Positions 1 to 3,085 of a stretch of DNA of 64,000 bases are shown in pieces; the first letter of the stretch is position 1, and every line of letters starts with the position of its first letter. The notes under the pieces were generated by a model that saw nothing but the letters and a program-made list of their open reading frames with translations, was not told where the DNA came from and made no database searches. Source of the DNA: Ceraceosorus guamensis. Its lineage: Eukaryota > Basidiomycota > Exobasidiomycetes > Ceraceosorales > Ceraceosoraceae. The position numbers and the translations under genes were made by a program. Where the stretch lies: NCBI RefSeq assembly GCF_003144195.1, contig NW_020290011.1, forward strand, positions 62,001 to 126,000. Reading direction: 5' to 3'.

Positions 1-759
1 CTGTCGTATATGGGTCAGTTGCCAGATGACATGCTCGGACGACCTCATCATGCGTCCCTTCGACGTCGACTGACCACAAGCGAGCTGATGTGAACTCCCA
101 CAGTATCCATCTCAAACAGTCTACTTTGCTGTATTTGCTCGCTCTGCCGTTTGTACTGGTCAGCGAATGTGAGGGCGCCAGCTACGGGCAAGATGTTACA
201 TCGCTCGACATACTCACATCGTCAGTCTCCTTCCTCACCGATACGCAGTATCGTGGAGAGTTGTTCCCGTAAGTCTGGAAGTCGAGAGGAAAGCTACCCG
301 AGCACATGCTGAAGTGTTCGTTCTGCAGTTTGTCGGACTCGTCGCTTTCACCCTTGTGGGCTTAGAAGGTATCGCTTCCGAAATAGAGGTGAGCGGAGCT
401 GCAACTCGTTCGGTGCCTTTACACTACAAGTTGCGCGAATTTCCCCTTGACGATTTGACATTCTGCACGCCCAACGCTTCTTTTCCCCAGAGACGTGAGT
501 GCCAGAGCATCAGCTTGTCATGGATACCCTCGCGAACCGCTCATACCATTTGCATATCTTCTCGACAGCGTTCGGCAAAGATCCGTCGGATCATCCGCTC
601 GATATGAGTGCTGCGCTCTTCAGGCACGAAATTGGTCAGTCATCGAACGCATTCGTTAGGGTGCTCGTCGCACTTGCATTCTGACACACAATGCGCCCTT
701 CTGCAGAGGTCATGATGCGCGTCGAACCTGGCGGAATTCCGGAGGAAGATGTATTGTGA
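1..759 (+). CDS. Bestrophin-like (UPF0187) anion channel, C-terminal part
   Basis: Only the 3' end lies in the window. Exons fitted by frame and family pattern: 1-13, 104-168, 249-268, 329-388, 491-494, 569-634, 707-759 (stop TGA 757-759). The joined product reads VVYGIHLKQ, then LLALPFVLVSELSWRVVP, a hydrophobic stretch FVGLVAFTLVGLEGIASEIE, then RPFGKDPSDHPLD. The EIE-x-PFG-x-D-x-D-x-PLD block is a hallmark of the fungal and bacterial bestrophin/UPF0187 family, which forms membrane anion channels. The 4-nt exon 491-494 is needed to join EIE to PFG in frame with canonical splice sites. Two introns flank it (102 and 74 nt). The gene runs convergently into the secreted hydrolase to its right. 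The family call is secure from the motif; substrate and membrane location cannot be judged from this fragment. Confidence 0.85.
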
Positions 760-1175: not shown

Positions 1176-3085
1176 TCAGGCAATCACACCGCTACCGACT
1201 TTGGCGATAAAGTCTGCCGAGTAGATTGAAGAGTTTTCTTGACGACCGAGGGTCTGTTTACGATTGGCGAGAAGAACATCGAGGTGGTTGTAGCCGTCGC
1301 AAATGACGTGGTTTCCAAGATCGCCGAATTGACCTCCGACGGCGAGACCTTCGCTGCCCACGACGTTGAGGATGGGTCGTTTGGTGTAGCCGTCCAGATG
1401 CAGCGCCTTGGGCATCACATTTTTCGAGCCGAGGTTTTGAAAGAGGACGTCGGTGGTGGTGCGCGTTGCGTAGTAGTGCTCGGTGAAGTCCAGAGGTGCT
1501 TCGGAGAGGGATCGAGAGAGGTCAGAGATGGATGAGACTTCAAATTTGGCCTTGGTGAAGGGCTGCCCATTGTTCGCCTTGTCCACATTGGAGCCGTCTT
1601 CTTTGATCTGATCGTAGTCTAGCCACTCGTACAGCGGTCCATTGCCTTGACCTAGGAAACCAGCGTCTGAGGGTACGCCGAGCGGGTATGGACTGGAGAG
1701 TGGCAGCATCGAAGCAGCTTGGGATTCGTTCGACGGCAGAGCGAATGGCGAAGCTCCGACTGGGAAACTCCTCTCTTCGATCTTTCCTCCCGTACCGAAC
1801 CCGACGGAAGCTTGGAGAAAGGCGAAACCTTGGCTACGGTCAGAAAGGATCGCTCCTACCAGCGCTTCGTTCGTCGCGCGAAGGTTGAAAGCGGATGGAA
1901 AAAAGGTGGCGAATTGAGCTACGGTTTTGGAGAAGAAGAATTGAGCGGCAGAAGTGATGGTGGGTGTGCGCGGCAGGCCTTTGACGTCGGCTTCGGCTTT
2001 GGGCGCCACCACTGCTCGACCTCCGACCAAGCTGAGCAGCTGGGTGGTTTCGGAGTTGAGAACGACGGGCAATGCGGTCAAGAGGGAACGCGGAAGAATG
2101 CCAGATCTGAAACCTGCCTGAGCCACTTCGAAACCAGCGTCGATGATGGGCTGAATGATCTTGGCTAGACCTTCGGGAATGTTGGCAGGTCCAAATTTGG
2201 TAGTGACGACCGTGTCGTAGCCGATGAAGCCTGCTGCTTGGTTGTAGCCTGCATCGCCCGTCGTCTTGACATCCCCATCGCGGTCATAGGCAGCGAAGAA
2301 AGCGGTCAATGGTCCACCGAGACTGTGACCCGAAGCGTAGTGCTTGGTGGCTCGGTAGTTGGCATCTGGCAACTCGCGCGTCACGACATCGTACCAGTCG
2401 CTTGAAGTCTGCTCCACTCCAAGTTCGGCAAGAATAGCAGTGTTGGCATCCGTGTTGCTGTAGAAGCCGGCAAATTTGCGACCAGCGATGGCAGCTTTGT
2501 TGTAGTAATAATCGAAGCCTGTCTTTAGGTTCTTGCCCTGAACGGCGGCAAAGACACCTGTAAAGGCAAAGGGGGACAATACACGTCAGCATGCGCTTTC
2601 GTGCTTCCAAATGATGCGGTGCGCAACGCACCAGTCTGATCGTCGAGGCAGTTGGCACGACGGTCGAGAGCCCAAAACTCGACGTTGAGATTGTGCTTCT
2701 CCTTGGCATAAAAGATGACATTGCGAGCGAGTTGATCAGCGCTCGAAGCTCCCGCAAGCGTGCCGGGCATGAACGTCTCTACCCGATCAGCTTTGAGCGG
2801 GTCGGAAGGCCCGTCGGCGTGCCTATAACGAATGTAGCTGATGTAATCGCACTCTGGAAGGTGCGCGGTGGGGGTCTTGATGGGGACGAAGAGAGAGACT
2901 ACGGATTGTTTGACAAAGGTGTCCTTGGAAACGGACGTGAAGGGCGTCTCGACTCGCGCGGTACCGTACTTGACTGGAGTAAGAAGGCCAGGCAGATACA
3001 CCGTCGATGTGCCTGCGGGTGCGGCTGAGATGAGGCCAGAGCCTGCGCAGATGGCCAGCAGCACTGCCGCAAGAGAGAGCTTCAT
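1176..3085 (-). CDS. Secreted alpha/beta hydrolase, 611 aa
   Basis: Two exons, 3085-2632 and 2557-1176, with a 74-nt GT-AG intron. The start at 3085 gives a clear signal peptide (MKLSLAAVLLAICAGSGLIS, then AAPAG), so the protein should be secreted. The sequence WALDRRANCLDDQTG spans the intron and is typical of a fungal hydrolase group. The nucleophile elbow GHSLGG is near residue 230, and a late His in GYNHLDVLL is the likely catalytic His. Substrate is unknown; lipase, esterase and amidase activities are all possible. The gene is convergent with the bestrophin-like gene and divergent from GPI12 across a 2 kb spacer. Confidence 0.85.

Follow-up and report, generated by a model that had tools for sequence, protein, structure and literature searches.

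A bestrophin-like channel gene at the left edge of the window (the whole stretch of 64,000 nucleotides analyzed here) very likely contains an internal exon of only four nucleotides, AGAC at positions 491–494, and we put the probability that this exon is real at roughly 0.88. We infer splicing of the mRNA as GAG/AGAC/CG from the sequence, the reading frames, the splice dinucleotides, the fit to the protein family, and the rarity of such an arrangement by chance. The model that includes AGAC, probably constitutively, was supported as the best gene model by a clear margin, and its product may function as a pentameric anion channel.

The gene lies on the plus strand, with the last seven of its nine exons in the window and the first of these seven only partly so. 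Adding the upstream flank gave a whole model of nine exons with an intact 451-aa product, and all eight of its introns are bounded by GT–AG. In window coordinates, exon 1 (−1270 to −1048) and exon 2 (−931 to −528) lie upstream of the window, and exon 3 (−447 to 13) reaches into it with its 3′ end at 1–13, in a continuous frame (...ATMTIPVVYG). There follow intron 3 (14–103; 90 nt, GTCAGT...CACAG), exon 4 (104–168; 65 nt, IHLKQSTLLYLLALPFVLVSE), intron 4 (169–248; 80 nt), and exon 5 (249–268), a 20-nt microexon that, together with the final base of exon 4, encodes LSWRVVP. Intron 5 (269–328; 60 nt) and exon 6 (329–388; 60 nt, FVGLVAFTLVGLEGIASEIE) lead to the segment of interest, where intron 6 (389–490; 102 nt, phase 0), exon 7 (AGAC), and intron 7 (495–568; 74 nt, phase 1) precede exon 8 (569–634; 66 nt, FGKDPSDHPLDMSAALFRHEI), intron 8 (635–706; 72 nt), and exon 9 (707–759; 53 nt) with its TGA stop codon at 757–759. 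Of the six introns that lie completely within the window, four have lengths that are multiples of three (14–103, 269–328, 389–490, 635–706), and introns 4 to 7 each contain no stop when read in the upstream frame.

Assignment to the bestrophin family, proposed in an earlier note on this DNA, was borne out by Pfam, which names the 451-aa product Bestrophin_2 (PF25539, Bacterial/Fungal Bestrophin) with 196.3 bits against a curated cut-off of 27. The match falls in two stretches, the best of which spans profile positions 153–285. Among sequences of solved structures, the product matched bacterial bestrophins (e.g., 6iv0, E = 3.6e-16) and a chain listed as rhodopsin (7pl9), which we take to be a bestrophin-rhodopsin fusion. 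Protein and family profile searches of the 23.8-Mb assembly (199 contigs) turned up no second copy: six of the seven protein matches were the gene's own exons and the remaining one, located on a different contig, had E = 0.5, while the family profile matched this gene alone. Gene family, genome size, intron brevity, and GTGAGT donors together point to a fungal genome, probably that of a basidiomycete. The other bestrophin model, PF01062, matched neither in the genome nor in 14 controls, and a search of viral contigs found no bestrophin relatives.

The conserved block is split between exons 6 and 8. EIE is complete at 388, in phase 0, directly before the GTGAGC that opens intron 6, and exon 8 begins at 569 after ...CTCGACAG, its CG being the last two bases of a proline codon. 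AGAC sits between ...TTTTCCCCAG and GTGAGT; it holds an arginine codon and the first base of the proline codon, so that with AGAC included the join reads EIE-R-PFGKDPSDHPLD. The positions and phases given earlier for the end of EIE, for AGAC, and for the resumption at FGKD were all confirmed in the sequence. A microexon is an exon of 30 nt or less (PMC8042270), and AGAC, internal and flanked by the canonical AG and GTGAGT, would belong to this class at 4 nt. Treating 389–568 as one intron shifts the frame because CG-TTC-GGC must be preceded by one further base. The broader claim, that no single GT–AG intron joins the two halves in frame, holds for the pair 389/568 and fails in general: a GT–AG intron at 408–568 does so with five extra residues, and the intron at 495–568 alone with 34, both at the cost of a poorer family fit. 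Of two further candidates that were rejected, the use of the AG at 492 as acceptor (leaving an exon AC) gives the wrong frame for the acceptor at 568, and the direct joining of 389 to 568 with AGAC skipped shifts the frame, meets a stop at 605–607, and scores 120.0 bits on the profile of relatives described below.

We took the family pattern from bacterial relatives. We searched 120 genomes of the phylum to which one bacterial relative belongs with the Pfam profile and obtained 19 places in 16 genomes; 18 were kept and one was dropped for lying under the family cut-off. The 18 include one weak match and two pairs that are nearly alike in the aligned segment, and their open frames were chosen with a profile built on a larger set of 80 loci that is biased toward PFG. 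This larger set represents the kept loci of at least 554 confirmed relatives (at least 595 pattern matches). E[IL]E-x-PF was present in 80 of 80 kept loci, but 78 of the 80 match a search pattern that contains PFG, and we gave the set no weight because it had been selected in this way. In the 18 profile-selected bacterial relatives, P and F were invariant, G came next in nine, and the E position was separated from PF by exactly one residue, gap-free, in every case. The model with AGAC has x-PF at this fixed spacing and with no insertion; models that skip AGAC, keep 389–490, or use the donors at 393 or 408 do not. The arginine that AGAC places at x has no counterpart among the bacterial rows, where the residue is D, E, N, H, or A.

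To rank the possible joins, we enumerated the in-frame, stop-free models that place one or two introns of 40 nt or longer between 335 and 634, keeping exons 5 and 9 fixed and allowing GC donors in one-intron models only. There were 206 models in all, including the AGAC model, and 60 of them had one intron. The AGAC model ranked first on the 18-relative profile with 142.0 bits, and when splice scores were added to the profile score it was still first (166.6 vs 147.4 for the next). Pfam Bestrophin_2, a profile of outside origin, also placed the AGAC product ahead of the other models submitted to it, with 196.3 bits for the whole product against 174.3 when intron 6 is retained and 175.3 when AGAC is left out; over the C-terminal part the AGAC model scored 69.8 bits, compared with 49.2 and 49.3, respectively, for these two. 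The 18 relatives had themselves been identified with the Pfam profile, so the two scales are only partly independent.

Second on the 18-relative profile (134.2 bits) and in Pfam (61.8 bits over the C-terminal part) was a single GC–AG intron at 393–568, which would add GTGA to exon 6 and give EIE-V-T-FGKD, a product of the same length with threonine for proline. GC–AG borders have been reported beside some of the microexons in basidiomycete bglA genes (PMC9142197), which lends this model a precedent. Its donor context, GTGA/GCGGAG, nevertheless scores −9.2 (a value that is partly built in, as the donors in the training set were GT), and it loses the proline that is invariant in 18 of 18 relatives; we consider it very improbable. 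Third came a GT–AG intron at 408–568 (131.3 bits; Pfam 58.5 bits over the C-terminal part), which is in frame, has canonical dinucleotides, and restores PFG in EIE-VSGAAT-PFGKD. It would require the weak donor GTTCGG (−2.7) to be used beside the good one at 389, and it would place five extra residues where 18 of 18 relatives have no insertion, which leaves it the least probable of the models weighed here.

A further alternative is that intron 495–568 is the only intron in this segment, with 389–490 coding as part of an exon at 329–494. This would add the 34 residues VSGAATRSVPLHYKLREFPLDDLTFCTPNASFPQ between EIE and RPFG, and the two halves would be joined in frame because 389–490 is 102 nt, a multiple of three, with no in-frame stop. 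Just one GT–AG intron is needed, and the model is compatible with coding potential: 389–490 gave −0.015 bits/nt, accepted exons ranged from −0.060 to +0.075 and other introns from −0.150 to +0.066, so this measure fails to separate the segment from exon sequence. Family comparison argues against it, as an insertion at that site occurs in none of the 18 relatives, Pfam falls by 22 bits, and the 18-relative profile falls from 142.0 to 118.9 bits. Moreover, the stretch starts and ends as a standard donor and acceptor (GTGAGC, TTTTCCCCAG). We regard this as quite unlikely, if a shade less so than the GC–AG intron, and return to the AGAC model.

We also asked what a small internal exon would do elsewhere in the gene. 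The family score gained only in the gaps that hold the 20-nt exon (91.2 to 142.0 bits) and AGAC (120.0 to 142.0 bits), and the six single introns retained the direct join; the control is thin because a rival model could be fitted only into intron 1. The 20-nt exon at 249–268, noted earlier in the same gene, is thus upheld by the family profile.

The arrangement around AGAC was rare by chance when site strength was taken into account. With the outer splice sites fixed and the interior shuffled so as to keep dinucleotides (n = 20,000), a 4-nt internal exon that has C as its last base and a summed splice score equal to the real one or higher appeared in 4 shuffles, and any in-frame exon of up to 34 nt that restores the proline at equal strength appeared in 41. 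Genomic inserts in place of shuffles gave 8 of 9,008 and 28 of 9,008, respectively, which are upper figures for chance because the inserts overlap (step of 60 bases) and include the bestrophin locus. When no demand was made on splice strength, 1,367 of the 20,000 shuffles held some AG-NNNC-GT in frame. It is therefore the strength of the sites, above all of the GTGAGT donor, that carries the argument from chance.

Splice-site matrices were trained on 25 introns, 19 of them ab initio and six from the bestrophin gene. Two codon-based harvests of ab initio introns yielded too few, and the 19 came from a Markov version that started from 67 candidate clusters. The donors of introns 6 and 7 scored 8.6 and 10.1, inside the training range of 4.8–13.5, and the acceptors scored low, at 3.8 for 490 and 2.0 for 568 against a training range of 3.9–12.8 that is drawn from 25 introns only. 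Branch motifs take the form yTnAy or, more strictly, CTRAY. Sites resembling yTnAy were found in both introns, with TTGAC occurring twice, 32 and 40 nt before the AG of 389–490, and CTCAT 25 nt before the AG of 495–568; CTRAY was absent from introns 6 and 7 and present in introns 1, 2, 3, and 8.

In the proposed route, the pre-mRNA would lose two short, separately defined introns, 389–490 and 495–568, to bring EIE and PFGKD together across AGAC. The two introns would probably leave sequentially, in the manner of recursive splicing, since U1 and the 3′-splice-site factors cannot share four bases. That a four-base exon leaves no room for exon definition had been raised earlier as a difficulty, and a human case indicates that it is no bar: the constitutive 4-bp exon of MPC1 is defined by intron sequence, 67 nt upstream and 6 nt downstream being sufficient (PMC9929638). 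In MPC1, a broken 5′ site leads to skipping and a broken 3′ site to retention of the upstream intron (PMC9929638). Similar failures at AGAC would yield, respectively, a frame shift that runs to the stop already given or an in-frame insertion of 34 residues ahead of the conserved PF(G). It is conceivable that the exon also acts as a switch among the normal channel, a channel with 34 extra residues beside the PF segment, and a shortened product: retaining 389–490 would leave the frame intact and open, and omitting AGAC would cut the protein short, so that one site could give three products. We think this improbable, although somewhat less so than any of the alternative gene models. If such a switch did operate, its exon would be shorter than the fungal exons that we found described, save the 1-nt exon of Fusarium.

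Exons of this size have been published in several lineages, and AGAC is very probably a new example of an already known ultra-short class. The suggestion that 4 nt lies near the lower limit for any eukaryote fails, as exons of 1 nt have been published in plants (PMC8831610) and in Fusarium (PMC12940212). The MPC1 exon is the closest in form, being 4 nt long, not a multiple of three, in the coding region, and constitutive, as AGAC is proposed to be. It differs in being a vertebrate exon with long flanking introns that was demonstrated by experiment, whereas the introns around AGAC are 102 and 74 nt and are known from sequence. In Fusarium, a 1-nt exon was described in the CYP621A P450 genes, with 20 orthologues and RNA reads in two species (PMC12940212). 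Like AGAC, it is fungal and was deduced from a conserved motif whose parts would not join in phase; unlike it, the 4-nt exon is proposed for one gene, from its sequence. The plant genes APC11 and VPS55 contain 1-nt microexons that were shown by RNA-seq and RT-PCR, are widely conserved, and were missed by annotation, with loss via intron retention also noted (PMC8831610). These share with AGAC a length that is not a multiple of three and, for VPS55, a GTRAGT donor, and they differ in their plant origin, their proof at the RNA level, and their wide conservation.

Basidiomycete genes offer parallels of slightly greater length. The bglA genes of basidiomycete yeasts have minimum exons of 5 and 6 bp, established against cDNA, and carry up to ten microexons each (PMC9142197). 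They resemble the present gene in having very short exons, several microexons in one gene, many introns, and short introns, and they differ in their cDNA support and in exons that are 1–2 nt longer. In P450 genes of Phanerochaete chrysosporium the shortest exons measure 6 bp (PMC1184071), and an 8-nt exon falls within a conserved motif (PMC12940212), much as AGAC does; these exons are longer and belong to another gene family. A regulated exon of 20 nt was reported in Trichoderma (PMC11121469). Among the matches listed in our literature search (titles and abstract openings), we found no 4-nt exon in a fungal bestrophin.

AGAC changes no principle, because exons of 1 to 6 nt have been published before. 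It would be a clear instance of a conserved protein that becomes readable through a 4-nt exon, and it would extend the growing list of ultra-short fungal exons in a way that is of use to annotators and to those who catalogue such exons. For that reason an automatic annotation would probably give a wrong or broken bestrophin at this locus. The locus may also offer a modest system for testing which of two short introns around a 4-nt exon is removed first.

Several features were seen around the gene. Upstream of it and divergent from it, at about 4816–5057 of L001 on the minus strand, lies a gene that looks like coatomer subunit zeta (28 residues of a translation made by eye match solved zeta-1 chains with an E of about 7e-5). 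The next gene downstream, at 1176–3085 of the window on the minus strand, is convergent with the bestrophin gene. Its main open frame of 468 aa matched no Pfam family and found no persuasive counterpart among solved structures, the best E being 0.03. Judged by eye, the product starts like a signal peptide (MKLSLAAVLLAICAGSGLISAAPAG) and carries a GHSLGG motif, presumably as in alpha/beta hydrolases. A run of 17 G occupies positions 958–974, about 200 bases past the stop codon of the bestrophin gene.
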